A stretch of 64,000 nucleotides of DNA. Origin: Myrmaecium sp. VS I D KN 1. Its lineage: Eukaryota; Ascomycota; Dothideomycetes; Valsariales; Valsariaceae. The position numbers were made by a program, and so were the translations under genes. The DNA is taken from positions 1,240,001 to 1,304,000 of the forward strand of contig JADQAV010000009.1 in the NCBI GenBank assembly GCA_019775845.1, in the 5' to 3' direction. Of the stretch, positions 35,376 through 56,461 are shown piece by piece. Each line of letters opens with the position of its first letter. Position 1 is the stretch's first letter. The notes under the pieces are model-generated. The model was not told where the DNA came from, ran no database searches, and saw only the letters and a program-made list of their open reading frames with translations.

Positions 35376-38300
35376 TCACTCCGCCTCCAGCTTCGCCCTA
35401 AGGTTCTCCTCGATCACGTCGGCGTTGCTCTCCACCCGGCAGTCGCAGCCGTACCGCCGGCGGAAGTCGGGCGCGGTGACGCCGTCGAGCAGCTCGAGCG
35501 CGTTGTTGCTGGCCTTGATGCGGGCGTAGCGGCCGCTGACGGCGGTGCCGTGGGCGATGATCTGGAGGTGGACCATGACCATGGCGATGACGGTGGTGCG
35601 GCCGCCAGGGACGAGGCTGGGCGGGTTGGTCCGGGTGGCGATGCGGTAGTGGGCGCAGCCGAAGTCCTCGCCCAGGAGCTTGCTCAGCCGCGTCGTGGGG
35701 TGGCTGTTGGCGAACGCGTCGTAGATCGTCATGTCCTCGAAGAAGTGCTTGATGTGGGCGTCGAAGAAGCGCTGCACGTGCGTGAAGTCGAAGGACGAGT
35801 CCACGAAGACCGCGCCGACGAACGCTTCGACGATGTCCGCGAGGCATTTCGGTGGGTCCTTGAGGTCCATCCACCAGGAGACGTCGGTGCGATGAGAGTG
35901 AGCCTCCTCCACTTCTGCGGCGTAACCGTAGATTTGGTGTTTCAGAACAGCGTCGTTGTGACGGAGATGGCGGTGGAAGCCGAGTTTTATGCAGAGCGCG
36001 CCCAGGAACTTGTTGGACACCATAGGCATTTTGTGCTCGGTGAGCCATTGCGGGTCTTTGTCGGGATACTTATTGTATATATGTGACACGAAGACCATGT
36101 CAAGCAAGGAGTCTCCCAGGAACTCAAGCCGTTGGTAGTGCGGAGTTCTGTCCCATGTGAAAGGCATAGAAGGGTGAATGAAGGCCGACCAGAGCAAGCG
36201 AGGATATTTGAATCGGTAGCCGTGCGAGCATTCAATCTCGTCGGCCAAGGCCAACAGCATGCCGTTAGCCTGGGCAAGTTGATATTTTGGAAGGCTGTAA
36301 CTTTTGAAATAATCAGACCAACTGTCCATTTGATGGTCTTCGTGCCGAACCACCGCAGTCACAGCTCGAACCGCGCTATCCCACTTCTCGGGCTGAAAGT
36401 TCCCCGGTTCGTCATGTTGCAGAAAAGCAGCGCCAATGAAGGCCTCGCAGATATCCGCGACGGTCTTGTCACTGAGCCGATGCTTGAAGACCTCTTCTCC
36501 AACCTTCTTGAATCCCTTACCCGCAGTCATTTTCAACCCTTCTGGATACCATAACCGGCGGGAGAATGCTTGGCTCCGAACATACTGTGGAAGACCGAGT
36601 TCCAAAGCAGCCCTCAGAAGGTTTTTGTTGCAGAGCATTGCCATTCTTTTGCAGTGAAAGAAATATTCGTTGTCGTTGGGGTTCTGGATGAAAACGGACA
36701 AGGATGTCGCCATTTTAAGGAAGCAGTCCCCCATGAACTCTAGCCTCTCATAATTAGAACCCATGCCCCTCTGAAGGTTGATCTTTTCGTTGAGGCTATC
36801 GTCAGTGTTGTCGGAGTCTTTGGTCAACGCTTCCAGTGCCAGTTGGGGCCCGATGTCAAGGCCAAGGAGATTATTGGCCTCCAGTGCAATTAAGTAAGAG
36901 TCGACGCGGTATGATATGGCTGGGAAAACGTAGCACATCGCTACAAACGGTGCGGGAAGCGTGGATATCTTCAAAGGCTCCGGAACAATGTAGCAGGATG
37001 GCATTCGCAGGTCCACCTCCTTTTGCTCGGGTTCTGCGAGCAGATTACGCCGGAACGGAACCCTTTCTGCTTCGATTACAGGCTGGTCCATCGTCCACCG
37101 ATCTCGTGTCTTCTGTTTCGATTTGGTCCATAGACTGACAGTATAGTCAAGTATGTCCACCGCGGTCTTGCCTTTCTTTCCGGTTTGAGAGGACGGAGGC
37201 AGAGGATCCGTGGGTTTCAGGTCTCGGCGGAGGCATCGACCAAAGAAACGACGGCCACCGTCAAACCTATCGACATAGTATCGTGATGCGAGGAATTCCT
37301 CTGGCATCGTAGGATCCCATCGATACTCTTCACGTCCTGCAATCTGGGTCACGATGTCCCAATCAATCAGGCTTCGTAACTCTTTGGGGTCTAACTTCTC
37401 GGAAGTATTGTAATGACGCAATGGTGCCAGATAATAGGGCATCTTTGAAGGTTCATGCTCGTACGTCTTGTTGTAGATGTCAAGAAACACCCTCAAAGTA
37501 ACTGTGGTCAACATATCCACGTCCTCGGATCCGACGTGAAAAGGTTCGGAGAAAGATCGTATAATGACCTGCGTGACCTTTCCACTGTTGAGGTACAATG
37601 GAAAAGGCGGCAGCGAAGGCAAAGCCCCTCGTGTAAGCAGAGCTAAAGGCTCATATGGCCTGTCAAGATGGTTGTCGACATCTAGGATTGTAAGGTAAAG
37701 CCGCTCCGGCATTACTCCCCTATCTTTACTCCAAAATTTAGGTTTGATAAGCATTGGATAGAGGTTCTTCTTCTTGCTCACTGCAAGTACAGCGTTTCTC
37801 AGTTCAGGCAGCCTTTTCTGAATAGTTGGGAGAAACCTCTGGTCAAGGAATCGGTTTATCCGCAGTTGACGGCATAGTTCGTACGCGGCAGAACGTCGAG
37901 CCAACGATTTCCTAGGCCAAGGTTTTCCGATTGCACGCTCAATTGGTGAGCATTCCGGCAGAATGACCTCGCAGATAAACTGTCCATTCTCAACAGAGAC
38001 AACATACTGAGGTTCCGTGGTCGTATTTTCATCGTCCTGGGGCTGTCAAATGTGAATAGTCAAGTTCGAGGAAAGGATCACTATGGGAAATTCCAACTTA
38101 CAAGGCATGACGCAAAATGTGCGATAATTGCCAGGCAAGAACTATAGGTTAGCTTTGCCCCCGAGTTTTTGTCGAGAAACTGTGGGTATTCCTGTTCATC
38201 TGCTATGAGTTCATTGATTTCGTGGTCGAGCAAACGATCAGAAGGTAAGGCCTCGCAGAACTCTCGCATATGCTTTTCCGCTTTTCGAACATGACTCAGG

Positions 38301-40230
38301 GCCTCGCTATGGATAGCGTTGTCCTTCTCTAGCATGTGTAGATATCTTGAATTGCGATGTCTTGCTCGGCCTCTGGATTGAACATATTGAATCATGGTTC
38401 GATAAAGATCAAAGCGAACTACAAGATTACAGCCAGGAATGTCCAAGCCTTCCTCTGCTACAGAAGTCGCAAAGAGGCAGTTCACTTTCCCTTTCTTGAA
38501 GTCTTGTATTGTGAGCAACTGTTGGCGTAAGGATATATTGATCTCACTGGATCTGGTGTTGTTCCCGATGAGAATGCCGGCGCGTAAGTGAGGCCCGCCG
38601 ATGTGACTGTATATTAGTTTTAGTAGCCTTGCCGTGGCCCTCGTTTCGACAAAAACTATGCATCGATGCTCACAAGGCTCCGCGAAGTAGATCTGCAACC
38701 ATTCCAAGAGTTTCAAGACCTTAGAGCTCACATCAGCAAGATTAGGCGCAGGGCAACCAAAATCATGATCCTGGACCATCTGCGCCGCTTCACGCAGACG
38801 CGCGATCTCTGCGTCTAGTTGTTCAACGCGGCTCCCTTTGTGCTGAATCATGAACAGGCGCTGTTCTCTCATCTCCATTTTACGAGCCTCTTCTTCCTGG
38901 AACGTGAATGACCAGTACATATCAGACGCCCAGCGACCAAGCTCAGAGCTTGCCTCTAGAGACCCTTTGAACAGTCTGCTGAAGGCACGGATCTCTCCGA
39001 ATTCTGCCTTTAATTTTTGGTGTAACGGCGTTTCGAATGGGCGTGCTAAACGATCGTATAGAGCAACGAACTCTTCCGGGCGGCTTATATTATTTCTCAT
39101 GAGCGCGAGGTTCGAGGTTGTTGCAATTCTGCTGTGAAGAAGAGTCTCAAGTTCAGTTGCAGCTTCCCTGACATCTACCTTGGCGTCTATAGGTGATGCT
39201 GTCATGCCAAATATTTTAGGTCGTCTACTCGGATCCGATTCGGCAAGATAATAATCCTTAATGATCTTGGAGTACGGATGGTCTCGCTTTGCATGGTGCG
39301 CCTCATCAAAGATGAGAACATTGATGTCAGAAATCTTGATGAATGCGTGCATGAGGCAATCCTGGAGGACTGCAGCAGTGCAGACAATAACCATGAACTC
39401 GTTGAATACTTTTTCCCACGTTTTTTGAGACCACAGGGAGCAACCACAGGCTCCACTGACTCCTTTTACATTCTGTGAGAGACCACACTGGAGGACGCTG
39501 GACTGCTGATAGACAAGATTCACCGAGTCAACCTAGTAGAAATTAGTCCGCATATTGGATGCTGCTAATATACGACGCTCACTAAAAAGAAAGAGATTCG
39601 CTTCTCCATGCCTTTGGCGCGTGCTTCCAGCTCTTGGTCCACCACATGTTGCAAAAGCATTGTCGCAATATGCGTTTTCCCAGAGCCTGTGTCCAGGACA
39701 GCTATGATGTTATTATCCCTGGCTTGCTGGAACAGCTCGGTTTGATAGTCCCGAGCATTCACGATTTTGGATTTGTCGTTATGCTTTGCTAGGATCTCTT
39801 GGATAGAAAGCTGCTCATCGTCAGTAGTCTTGATGACCTTTTCGATCACTTCTTTGGCAGAGCTTTCTGCTTGAGCAGCGGCGAAGCTCTTGAATATTTC
39901 GTTCTGCTGTCGGCGGATCTCGTCCGAGCTGTAGGGACCGATAGCATGGGAGACATCGGCATCGATGTCAGAGTCGTCGGAGCCATCGTCTTTGGTGCTT
40001 TGTTGCTTGACAGAGGTTTGTGGGGGATCTGTCGTCTTAGCAGATACAGCTTCGTTCCCGGAGGCTGCCGCAGGCGCCTTCCACGGCTTCGTTTGATGTC
40101 GGGTAGAATTGTCGTTTGTTGGCGGCACCTTGCCCGGAATGTTGTCTATTGGAACCCGAACCGGAGGTGATACACATGTTGATCGCGTTAGAGCCGCGAG
40201 GTCGATGCGGGATGCGAAAGGGTCTGCCAT
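35376..40230 (-). CDS. dcl1: Dicer-like protein 1
   Basis: Dicer cuts long double-stranded RNA into small RNAs for silencing. Three exons: 39583-40230, 38102-39532 and 35376-38042; 4746 nt, 1581 residues. Domains in order: a Ser/Asp-rich N-terminus; DExH helicase with TGSGKT at 181-186 and DEAH at 292-295; helicase C with QSRGRAR; Dicer dimerisation domain (about 650-750, split by intron 2); a PAZ-like middle of low similarity; RNase IIIa with LEFMGD at 1127-1132 and DICEAFIGAAF; RNase IIIb with LEFLGD at 1332-1337 and DIVEAFVGAVF; and a C-terminal dsRNA-binding domain ending in CDCR. Both RNase III domains retain their Glu/Asp metal-binding residues, so it looks active. The N-terminal sequence and C-terminal dsRBD favour Dcl1 over Dcl2. 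In Neurospora Dcl1 works mainly in meiotic silencing. It is divergent from TAP42. Confidence 0.93.
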
Positions 40231-50712: not shown

Positions 50713-53700
50713 ATGGCGGGGCAGTTGACAGGCGGTGCGGCTGCGGGCGCTCCTCAGATGGCCTTGGAGTTGGAGGATGGCTACTTCGTCACCGGCATCA
50801 GCTTCGGTGCCGAGAAGAGCGTTGCCGGTGAGCTGGTCTTCCAGACCGGCATGGTGGGATACCCGGAGTCCATCACGGGTACGTTCTGGACGACAATTGC
50901 TCGCTGCCTCGACCGCCGGAAACCTTTCGAACTAACATATAAATTTTCTAGATCCGAGTTACCGAGGCCAAATCCTCGTCGTCACATTCCCCCTGGTAGG
51001 AAACTATGGTGTTCCCTCCAGGGAGGAGCGTGACAAGCTCTTGGGCGACCTGCCCGCCTACTTCGAGGCTGCTAAAATCCACATCGCCGGTTTGGTGGTG
51101 GCAACTTATGCCGGCGAGGAGTACTCCCACCACCTTGCTACTTCCTCCTTGGGAACTTGGTTGAAAGAGCAAGGCGTGCCTGCTATCTGTGGCGTGGACA
51201 CCAGGGCGCTCACCAAGAGGATCCGGGAAGAGGGTAGCATGCTTGGAAAGCTTCGTCTGCAGAAGGCCCCTTCTCTGCTCCAGCAGCTGGCTCACCCTCT
51301 TTCTCGCGCCCACGCTGAGGCTGAAGCTTTCACCTCTCTTGCCGACGAGGCTCTGAAGGAACGCTTCGAGGAGATTGACTGGGTGAACCCCAACGAGAAA
51401 AATCTTGTGGAAGAGGGTAAGTTGCAATAAATTGTGCAGAAAAGGAGCCGTGGCTAACAGAGATAAAAGCATCCACTAGCCACCCCAAGACATACCACCC
51501 CGATCCGGATGTTGCGTTGATCCATCCCACCGGTCGTCCTGTCAAGGTTGTTTGCGTCGACGTTGGTTTGAAATACAACCAGCTTAGGTGCCTTCTGAAG
51601 CGTGGTCTCGAGGTTGAAGTCGTCCCCTGGGACTATGATTTCCCGAAGCTGGCTGGAAAGGAGTATGATGGTCTCTTCATCTCCAACGGTCCCGGTGACC
51701 CAGCTATAATGAAGGACACTGTCGAGCACATCCGTGCCGCTTTGGAGGAGGCCCGCACCCCGATCTTCGGCATTTGCTTGGGTCACCAGCTCCTCGCTCG
51801 CGCTGCTGGTGCGCAGACCTTGAAGATGAAGTTTGGCAACCGTGGCCACAACATCCCTTGCACGAGCCGTCTCTCTGGACGGTGTTACATTACCTCGCAA
51901 AACCACGGTTACGCAGTGGACTCCAACACCTTGCCTTCCGGCTGGGAGGAGCTCTTCTACAACGCCAACGATGGCAGCAACGAAGGTATCCGGCATGTCA
52001 ACCGGCCGTACTTCAGTGTTCAGTTCCACCCCGAGCATGCTCCTGGTCCCCGCGACACTGAGTTCCTGTTTGATGTATTTGTCGATACCATCATGGAAAC
52101 TCTCCACAACCCCGACGCGCTGAAAGCACCTGTCAAGTTCCCCGGCGGAGATATTGTGGAGAACAAGAAGCAGCACCCCCGCTTGAAGCCCAAGAGGGTC
52201 TTGGTTTTGGGCAGTGGTGGCTTGAGCATTGGTCAGGCTGGCGAGTTCGACTACTCCGGATCCCAGGCTATCAAGGCGCTCAAGGAGGAGGGTATCTACA
52301 CCATTCTCATCAACCCGAACATCGCCACCATCCAGACATCAAAGGGGTTGGCCGATCGCGTTTACTTCCTGCCTGTCAATGCCGAGTTCGTCAGGAAGGT
52401 CATCAAGCAGGAGAAGCCGGATGCTATCTACGTCACGTTCGGTGGTCAGACCGCGTTGCAGGTCGGTATCCAGCTGAAGGACGAATTCGAGGGACTTGGT
52501 GTCAAGGTTCTCGGTACCCCTATCGAGACTGTCATCACTACAGAGGATCGTGAGCTCTTCGCTCGTAGCATGGAGTCTATCGGCGAGAAGTGCGCCAAGT
52601 CCGCCTCTGCCTCCAACGTAGAGGAAGCCATGCGCGTCGTAGGCGACATTGGCTTCCCTGTCATCGTCCGCGCAGCCTACGCATTGGGTGGTTTGGGTAG
52701 TGGCTTTGCCAACAACGAACAAGAACTCCTTGATCTCTGCAACAAGGCCTTCGCTGCCAGCCCCCAGGTCCTCATCGAGCGTAGTATGAAGGGCTGGAAG
52801 GAGATCGAATATGAGGTCGTCCGTGACGCATACGACAACTGTATTACTGTTTGTAATATGGAGAACTTCGATCCTCTCGGCATCCACACTGGCGACTCTA
52901 TCGTTGTTGCCCCTTCCCAGACCCTCTCGGATGAGGATTACAACATGCTGCGCACGACTGCGGTCAATGTGATCAGGCATCTGGGAGTTGTCGGAGAGTG
53001 CAACATCCAATACGCGCTGAACCCTTTCTCAAAGGAGTACTGTATCATTGAGGTCAACGCGCGTCTGTCCCGTTCCTCTGCCCTTGCCTCTAAGGCGACC
53101 GGTTACCCCCTCGCTTTCATTGCTGCTAAGCTCGGCTTGAACATCCCCCTTAATGAGATCAAGAACAGCGTCACCAAGAGCACCTGTGCTTGCTTTGAGC
53201 CGTCTCTCGACTACTGCGTCGTCAAGATTCCCCGCTGGGATCTCAAGAAGTTCACTCGTGTCTCTACACTCCTCGGATCTTCCATGAAGAGTGTGGGCGA
53301 GGTTATGAGCATCGGCAGGACTTTTGAGGAGGCTATTCAGAAGGCCATCCGCGAGATTGAGCCCAACAACATTGGGTTCAACTACGAGGCTCATGCACTC
53401 ATGGACATCGATGACGAGCTTCAAACTCCTTCTGACCAGCGTCTCTTCGCTATCGCGAACGCCATGCATGCCGGCTACAGCGTAGACAAGATCTGGGAAA
53501 TGACCAGGATCGACAAGTGGTTCCTCAGCAGACTCAAGGGGCTGAGCGACTTCGCCAAGGATATGGGTCACTTCAACGCCTCCTCTGTTCCCCGGCATCT
53601 CTTCAGGAAGGCCAAGCAACTTGGCTTCTCGGACCGTCAGCTGGCTAAATTCTGGAACTCCAACGAGCTCGCGGTTCGCCGGGCTAGGGTTGACGCCGGC

Positions 53701-56461
53701 ATTGGCCCTGTTGTCAAGCAAATTGATACCGTCGCTGCGGAATTCCCGGCCTTCACTAACTACCTGTACCTCACGTACAATGGTACTGAACACGACATCT
53801 CTTTTGAAGACCACGGTGTCATGGTTCTGGGGTCTGGTGTGTACCGTATCGGTTCCTCCGTCGAATTCGACTGGTGCTCTGTCCGCGCTGTCAGGACCCT
53901 GCGCGAGTCTGGTTACAAGACGGTCATGGTTAACTACAACCCTGAGACCGTGAGTACGGATTACGATGAGGCTGACCGTCTCTACTTTGAGAACATCAGC
54001 TTGGAGACGGTTCTGGACATTTACCACCTTGAGAACTCTGCTGGTGTCATGCTTTCCATGGGTGGTCAGACTCCTAACAACATCTCTCTGCCACTCCACC
54101 GCCTGAACGTCCGGATCCTGGGTACCTCTCCTGAGATGATTGACACTGCTGAGAACAGGTACAAGTTCTCACGTATGTTGGACCGCATCTCAGTTGATCA
54201 GCCTGCCTGGAAAGAGCTTACTAGCATCGATGAGGCCTTGGAGTTCTGCGAGAAGGTGTCATACCCTGTCCTTGTCAGACCTTCTTACGTCCTCTCTGGT
54301 GCTGCCATGAACACTGTGTACTCCAAGGATGACTTGGCCAACTACCTCAACCAGGCTGCAGCGGTCTCTCGCGATCATCCCGTGGTCATTACCAAGTACA
54401 TCGAGAATGCCAAGGAAATCGAGATGGACGCTGTTGCTTTGAACGGCAAGATGATTGGACATTTCGTTTCGGAGCACGTGGAAAACGCTGGTGTGCACTC
54501 TGGTGATGCTACTCTGATCCTGCCCCCTCAGGATCTGGACCCCGAGACTGTGCGCAGGATTGAGGATGCTACTCGCAAAATCGGCAATGCCCTCAACGTG
54601 ACCGGGCCTTTCAACATCCAGTTCATCGCGAAGGACAACGAGATCAAGGTTATCGAGTGCAATGTCCGCGCTTCCCGGTCCTTCCCCTTCGTCTCGAAGG
54701 TTATGGGTGTCGACCTGATTGAGATGGCTACCAAGGCTATGGCGGGTTTGCCTGTTGAGGAATACCCTCCGGTCAACATCCCCTCCGACTACGTCGGTGT
54801 CAAGGTTCCTCAGTTCTCCTTCTCTCGTCTGTCTGGTGCCGACCCGGTTCTGGGTGTTGAGATGGCTTCGACCGGTGAAGTCGCTTGCTTCGGTCGCACT
54901 AAGTACGAGGCTTACATGAAGGCCCTGATCTCCACTGGATTCAGATTGCCGAAGAAGAACATCCTCTTGTCCATTGGATCCTTCAAGGATAAGATGGAGA
55001 TGCTGCCTTCCATCCAGTCTCTCCACAAGATGGGATACAACCTCTTTGCCACCGCGGGTACCGCCGATTTCATCTCTGAGCATGGCATCCCTGTCAAGTT
55101 CCTGGAAGTTCTTGCTGGACGCGAGGGTGTCGATGGCCAGAAGGCTGAGTACTCGCTGACCCAGCATTTGTCGAACAACCTTATCGACCTCTACATCAAC
55201 CTGCCGTCCAACAACCGCTTCCGCCGTCCTGCTAACTACATGAGCCGTGGCTACAAGACCCGTCGTATGGCTGTTGACTACCAGATCCCTCTCGTCTCGA
55301 ATGTGAAGAATGCCAAGATCTTGATTGAGGCGCTTGCTCGTCACTACGATTTGGAGATCAGCAAGGTTGACTACCAGACTTTCGAGGAACGCCCGTCGAC
55401 CGCCCACGGCCAGGCTATGACCCTTCCTCGGCCCAAGCCTTCCCCTTCTCTGGCCCAGCTGCTCGCCATGTCTCCCTTCAAGGGCAAGAGCGTCATCTCC
55501 GTCAACAACATCACTCGCAGTGATCTTCATCTGCTCTTCACTGTTGCTTCCGAGATGAGGCTGGCCGTCCAACGCTCCGGAAGTATTGACCTTCTCAAGG
55601 GTCACGTCCTCTGCACCATGTTCTTCGAGCCTTCCACTAGGACCTCCTGCTCTTTTGATGCTGCTATGAAGCGCCTTGGTGGCTCCACCGTTGTGGTCAA
55701 CGAAGCGCACTCTTCCACTAAGAAGGGCGAGTCCCTGGCCGACACCATCAGGACTTTGGGTTGCTATGGCGATGCCATCGTCCTCCGTCATCCCGACGAG
55801 GAGTCTGCCGAGACGGCTGTCAAGTTCAGTGACGTCCCCATCATCAACGCTGGAAACGGCAGCCGCGAGCACCCTACCCAGGCTTTCTTGGATCTGTACA
55901 CCATCCGTGAGGAGCTCGGTACCGTCAACGGCCTGAACATCACCTTTGTTGGCGATCTTCAGTATGGGCGCACTGTCCACTCTCTCTGCAAGCTCCTCAG
56001 GCACTACGATGTCACCGTCAACCTGGTTGCTCCTGCCGAGCTGCCGCTGCCCGCCAAGGTTCGTGAGGATCTTCAGGCACGCAGCCAGCTCGCTATGGAG
56101 AGCCACGAGCTCACTCCTGAGATCCTGGCCAAGACTGATGTCCTTTACTGCACTCGCGTTCAGAAGGAGCGTTTCCCTGATCTGGCAGTCTACGAGAAGG
56201 TCAAGAACGCAATCGTGGTGGACAACGCGGTTATGAAGAATGCCAAGGACAAGATGATCATCATGCATCCTTTGCCTAGGAACGCTGAGATCAGTGAAGA
56301 GGTGGACTTCGACCCGAGGGCGGCGTACTTCAGACAGGTAAGTGAAACACGACCGAAGTCTCCCATCCCCTGGTCCCATCAATTAGATGCTAACAAAGGT
56401 TTAGATGAGATACGGCCTCTACACCCGCATGGCGCTGCTGGCGCTTGTGATGGCTCCATAG
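50713..56461 (+). CDS. Carbamoyl-phosphate synthase/aspartate carbamoyltransferase lacking the DHOase-like domain
   Basis: Makes carbamoyl phosphate from glutamine, bicarbonate and ATP, then carbamoyl aspartate: the first two steps of pyrimidine synthesis, controlled by UTP. Exons 50713-50878, 50952-51416, 51470-56337 and 56405-56461; 5556 nt, 1851 residues. Domains: glutamine amidotransferase 1-395 with GICLGHQLL (nucleophile Cys313); CPSase with two ATP-grasp halves from about 442; allosteric region to about 1513; linker 1514-1544; ATCase 1545-1851 with [30 protein letters not shown] and HPLPRNAEI. Known fungal homologues (yeast Ura2, Aspergillus pyrABCN) are 2200-2280 residues because an inactive dihydroorotase-like domain of about 330 residues and a longer linker lie before ATCase. 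Here VDYQT (ending at 55380) is followed almost at once by the ATCase in a single uninterrupted exon. All catalytic motifs look intact. Confidence 0.93.

Follow-up and report, generated by a model that had tools for sequence, protein, structure and literature searches.

The window, i.e. the whole stretch of 64 kb analysed here, belongs to contig C66 of its own assembly (25.66 Mb, 66 contigs) and carries on its plus strand a four-exon gene (50713-56461). Once its GT..AG introns are removed, 1851 codons followed by a stop codon can be read without interruption. In the encoded protein, Pfam recognises the CPSase small chain, the GATase, the CPSase oligomerisation domain, the MGS domain and both carbamoyltransferase halves, as well as the CPSase pre-ATP-grasp and ATP-binding domains, each present twice. 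This fusion order, glutaminase - CPSase - ATCase on a single chain, is that of the fungal CAD-like (Ura2/pyrABCN) proteins. The inactive dihydroorotase-like (DHO-like) domain expected between the CPSase and the ATCase of these proteins is absent and a 30-codon junction is found instead. Indeed, T1514, the last residue of the VDYQT motif, ends at 55380 and S1545, the first residue of SPFKGKS, starts at 55471, both inside exon 3. The sequence-only reading of this DNA had given exactly these coordinates, with about 30 residues between them in one exon, and a spliced product of 1851 residues; the four-exon open frame confirms both. Elsewhere in the window, a Dicer-like gene is found on the minus strand (35376-39523), with two RNase III stretches, a dsRNA-binding domain and the C-terminal part of a helicase; its reading consists of one open frame at 35376-37904 and another at 38081-39523, which an intron or a break would separate.

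Table 1. Exons and C-terminal domains of the CPSase-ATCase gene (positions in the window)
Feature	Position	Strand	Content
Exon 1	50713..50878	+	Start codon and N-terminal part of the CPSase small-chain domain; Pfam PF00988, residues 18-155
Exon 2	50952..51416	+	Remaining CPSase small-chain domain; PF00988
Exon 3	51470..56337	+	GATase, CPSase large-chain halves, MGS, junction and nearly whole ATCase; one open frame
Exon 4	56405..56461	+	Final ATCase residues and stop; aligns with the Ura2 C-terminus
MGS-like domain and CPSase C-terminus	54997..55380	+	PF02142, 72.3 bits, residues 1387-1486; ends VDYQT (residue 1514)
30-codon junction	55381..55470	+	Occupies the place of the DHO-like domain and the bulk of the inter-domain linker of Ura2
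ATCase domain	55471..56461	+	PF02729 and PF00185; intron 56338-56404 inside

The extent of the missing block was delimited by BLASTP against yeast Ura2, the reference being a provisional sequence of 2214 residues. Its length is consistent with the domain limits of P07259 given in a passage of PMC4625875 (CPSase 441-1482, ATCase 1910-2214), and its DHO part retrieves the PDB chain 5nnl as top match. Two blocks were obtained with this provisional sequence. The first pairs residues 10-1514 of the window protein with Ura2 16-1500 (1090 identical columns out of 1511, i.e. 72%) and the second pairs residues 1482-1849 with Ura2 1846-2210 (207 out of 370, i.e. 56%). The blocks overlap on the side of the window protein, since a little over 30 residues at the start of the second block already belong to the first. 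Ura2 1501-1845 thus has no counterpart at all in the window protein, and Ura2 1846 to about 1894 has only this overlapping one. On the ungapped diagonal, the right-hand homology resumes at about P1534 (Ura2 1895) and is recognisable from about P1534-L1538 onwards. On the left, homology stops at T1514 (Ura2 T1500), two residues short of H1502, which aligns with the first residue of 5nnl, a chain of 342 residues entitled 'Inactive dihydroorotase-like domain'.

The left edge of the gap lies at a domain boundary, and the right edge within the inter-domain linker. Furthermore, the residues ahead of the window ATCase are similar to those preceding the ATC of C. thermophilum. The protein thus lacks both the DHO-like domain and the greater part of the linker, whose final part seems to be kept. 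A gap of about 360 residues that falls between two domains and preserves the reading frame is not a chance pattern. The alignment with yeast Ura2, proposed as a check when the junction was first noticed, hence bears out the absence of the domain and of most of the linker, as judged with the provisional reference.

The remaining activities seem to be untouched. In the ATCase, 13 of the 14 active-site positions of the E. coli enzyme (provisional letters and positions) are identical; the fourteenth, S80, lies in a gapped loop and is T in the window protein, whereas C. thermophilum and yeast each have V. Comparison with E. coli CarB shows that the functionally important E-x-N residues are kept in the two CPSase halves, and the glutaminase part retains its motifs GICLGHQ and QFHPE. 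These three sets of residues agree with the initial claim that the catalytic motifs are intact. The protein would be made and work as a glutamine-dependent CPSase plus ATCase.

Such a junction could also be an artefact, the real gene possessing a DHO-like domain and about 1.1 kb having been collapsed or dropped during assembly. The fungal CAD-like proteins described in the available parts of the literature do carry this domain, and one copy of a repeat adjoins the junction. However, the repeat search of 54800-56000 (minimum 14 bases) detected no long repeat and only this pair (15 nt, 87% identity), whose copies at 54980-54994, in the MGS part, and 55475-55489, just right of the junction, are 495 bases apart; short two-copy families of this kind often arise by chance, and the pair is too short for a collapse to be expected. 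Codon usage, which was scored against the CPSase of the same gene and is hence self-referential for the two CPSase halves (0.72 and 0.75), is alike on both sides of the junction, with 0.77 for the MGS, 0.74 for the junction itself (30 codons only), 0.74 for the ATCase and 0.66 for the GATase. The comparison genes gave 0.55 (PAT1), 0.45 (hamartin), 0.63 (acetyl-CoA carboxylase) and 0.70 (NMD3). The similarity across the junction fits a single gene, the NMD3 value indicating that such a score is not unique to it. In addition, no orphan DHO-like piece was found in the 66 contigs. A collapse would need to have removed just the domain, from its boundary to a point inside the linker, in frame and without leaving an orphan piece, which makes an assembly error unlikely. 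A chimeric assembly was also considered and was disfavoured after testing.

The sequence-only reading had offered two explanations, a natural loss of the domain or a short paralogue residing beside a normal full-length gene, and had proposed to search the rest of the genome for a full-length copy. None was found in the 25.66-Mb assembly. Only one ATCase was detected, the sole other match being best fitted by an ornithine-carbamoyltransferase-type model. This other gene (C36:105552-106565, minus strand) contains one TAG within the matched stretch, perhaps in an intron. Among the eight matches of PF02786 (CPSase_L_D2) in the assembly, two belong to the gene under study, two to contig C2, where TIGR01369, the model of the CPSase large subunit, gives the best match to a stretch, one to the acetyl-CoA carboxylase gene (L005) and three to other places. 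The C2 CPSase is probably the arginine CPSase. No second pyrimidine CPSase-ATCase was found in the assembly. The conserved catalytic residues of the window protein also speak against a paralogue. In favour of a paralogue, it can be noted that the assembly might be incomplete, since 5.8S rRNA gave no match in it (39 of the 779 first-look candidates were scored) and the rDNA may therefore be missing or undetected. Nevertheless, with a single ATCase and no DHO-like stretch genome-wide, the paralogue is a very remote prospect.

Two queries, the C. thermophilum letters and the provisional yeast letters, found no DHO-like stretch in the assembly. As a control, the C. thermophilum ATC query retrieved the window ATCase (64% identity, 8e-122) and also reached the carbamoyltransferase gene of C36 at 31-33% identity; at this sensitivity, an ordinarily diverged DHO-like domain would be expected to show up. 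Similarly, the model TIGR00857, which does detect the DHO-like sequence of C. thermophilum (E 8e-22), matches in this genome only three stretches of one gene on contig C40; for the two main frames of this gene, allantoinase models (NCBIfam) give the best match. Pfam-A, by contrast, recognises the DHO-like domain neither in C. thermophilum 5nnl nor in the provisional yeast Ura2 letters, so that the lack of a Pfam match in the window protein is uninformative. These searches also bear on a domain encoded by a separate gene and joining the complex in trans, as in the Pseudomonas ATCase. Two-chain complexes of ATCase and pseudo-DHO do occur in bacteria, according to the available part of PMC7053772. 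However, neither of the two queries nor TIGR00857, whose only target is the allantoinase-like gene, revealed a candidate, and a pseudo-DHO in trans, the feature of class A2 ATCases, was not found in the assembly; the chance that such a partner exists is next to nil.

A type-II DHOase, recognised by TIGR00856, is probably encoded elsewhere in the genome (C24:136111-137298). The match comprises three stretches of 191.1, 84.9 and, weakly, 15.1 bits, none of which exceeds the whole-protein cut-off of 292.95, and one TAA lies in the first of them. The main stretch, 164 residues long and free of stops, matches TIGR00856 alone. The three stretches are read as exons of one type-II DHOase-like gene, separate from the CPSase-ATCase gene.

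The domain could also have been lost through an exchange rather than a simple deletion, the ATCase part having been swapped for a transferred or gene-converted ATCase. The three-way comparison of the ATCases (292 columns) found 40 changes specific to yeast, 34 to C. thermophilum and 30 to the window protein, whereas the acetyl-CoA carboxylase, the single yardstick gene, gave 54, 33 and 16 (521 columns), which is a weak contrast. By this carboxylase, the genome studied groups with C. thermophilum against yeast, so that the host would be a filamentous ascomycete. Tps1 matches two solved proteins almost equally well, those of M. oryzae and A. fumigatus (423 and 422 bits). The ATCase pattern is nearer to a star and could reflect an unusual evolutionary past of the domain. 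However, among solved structures the best match of the window ATCase is the ATC of a fungus, C. thermophilum (414 bits), followed by the human CAD structure 5g1n (305 bits) and the archaeal ATC 1ml4 (283 bits). The codon usage shared by both sides of the junction and the end of a fungal linker seemingly kept ahead of the ATCase also speak against an exchange, which is thus very unlikely. The same counts do not support a faster evolution of the ATCase after the loss (30 changes specific to the window protein vs 34 to C. thermophilum). As for fungal relatives, none was seen in viral contigs, where five stretches matched the pattern and none was confirmed, nor among the best 80 of the 336 confirmed relatives (from 342 stretches) in genome contigs; these 80 display 57-63% identity and are all titled bacteria or archaea.

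Altogether, the two-block match with Ura2, the preserved frame, the kept catalytic residues and the lack of any other copy support the first of the two explanations offered initially. Very probably, the gene is a Ura2/pyrABCN orthologue from which the inactive DHO-like domain, together with the larger part of the linker, was naturally lost in frame. Judged on these comparisons, it is an orthologue that fails one defining feature of the family architecture. If the domain is a general feature of fungal CAD-like proteins, as the available parts of three papers indicate (PMC4581275, PMC9863657, PMC6245113), the loss would be secondary.

The consequences for the junction itself were explored with an AlphaFold2 model of MGS-junction-ATCase, built from 20 rows (the window sequence, five bacterial or archaeal ATCases and 14 MGS stretches). 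The best of five models has a mean pLDDT of 83.6 and a pTM of 0.62, and its domains are mostly confident. The pLDDT falls below 50 at model residues 153-179, i.e. residues 1507-1533 of the protein, and a short helix covers 1538-1543. In the model, the CPSase and the ATCase would thus be joined by a flexible tether of about 27 residues.

What can be proposed for the hexameric assembly, the channelling and the UTP control of the 1851-residue protein is what we infer from related systems. An in-frame deletion at domain boundaries would have taken away the DHO-like domain along with much of the linker, all but its last part, that precedes the ATCase. The ATCase would still trimerise, carbamoyl phosphate would be handed to it by proximity on the short flexible tether, and N-carbamoyl-aspartate would pass to the separate type-II DHOase. 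In the model of CAD outlined in the available passages of PMC9863657, DHO dimers join ATCase trimers into a hexamer, to which CPSase dimers possibly contribute; the same passages report that mutations disrupting ATCase trimerisation lead to CAD dimers and that those disrupting DHO dimerisation lead to trimers. It is reasonable to link the loss of the domain with the building of the hexamer. As the pseudo-DHO dimer, the proposed link between two ATCase trimers, is missing, the complex would be either a trimer or a smaller form, for which the chances are about even, or a hexamer held by CPSase dimers, for which they are slightly poorer. Moreover, the loss need not be neutral, since the Pseudomonas ATCase requires its pseudo-DHO for activity (PMC7053772, in the part available). 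It can be suggested only tentatively that a fungal CAD works without any DHO or pseudo-DHO, which would make this domain dispensable for channelling and feedback, the ATCase trimers being joined by CPSase dimers or the complex remaining a trimer. If such a DHO-free CAD does work, the DHO-centred model of the CAD hexamer would not be universal.

The available literature agrees with the initial statement that fungal Ura2/pyrABCN proteins normally carry an inactive DHOase-like domain, nearly all of the descriptions calling it inactive. In the passages concerned, fungal CAD-like proteins are said to carry a DHO-type domain (PMC6245113), which is qualified as 'active or inactive' in one case (PMC6022934). 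The fungal fusion is also said to run 'usually' through a pseudo-DHOase domain (PMC4581275), a wording that leaves room for exceptions, and the available text of another paper names the CPSase and the ATCase with no mention of a DHO-like domain (PMC4720407). No DHO-less fungal CAD was described in the titles, abstract openings and passages searched. Such a form may nonetheless occur clade-wide and have gone unremarked. As Pfam misses the fungal DHO-like domain (two sequences out of two), such losses may go unnoticed in architecture tables built on Pfam and may be more frequent than supposed.

The persistence of a DHO without activity has been interpreted in structural terms, the domain providing the dimerising element within the hexamer (PMC9863657, as far as its available passages go). 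A natural enzyme devoid of the pseudo-domain is the experiment that this DHO-centred model needs, and what the pseudo-domain does would be directly visible from the enzyme's oligomeric state, channelling and UTP inhibition. Furthermore, a CAD-type complex has fallen apart in cryo-EM according to these passages, and a protein about 360 residues shorter than Ura2 may aid the structure determination of the complex.

Among known systems, the class A bacterial ATCases, in which three dimers of DHO or pseudo-DHO bridge two ATCase trimers (PMC7053772, available passages), share with the window protein an ATCase of the same family. They differ from it in that its ATCase is fused to a CPSase and that no DHO or pseudo-DHO partner was found in the assembly. 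Like animal CAD, the window protein carries the CPSase and the ATCase on a single chain, whereas animal CAD, as the available part of PMC9863657 states, also has an active DHO, of which there is none here. Aspergillus pyrABCN belongs, like Ura2 and the C. thermophilum CAD-like protein, to the fungal CAD-like proteins. Compared with Ura2, the protein is shorter (1851 vs 2214 residues) and has no counterpart of the linker stretch RRFS of the provisional sequence, a protein-kinase-A site. Unlike Ura2 and the C. thermophilum CAD-like protein, it is also devoid of the inactive DHO-like domain and of the greater part of the linker. Nevertheless, it displays the same order as both (glutaminase - CPSase - MGS - ATCase on one chain), resembles the provisional Ura2 over residues 10-1514 and the C. 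thermophilum ATC letters at the identities given above and, as in fungal CAD-like systems, is accompanied by a separate DHOase-like gene, the type-II one of C24.
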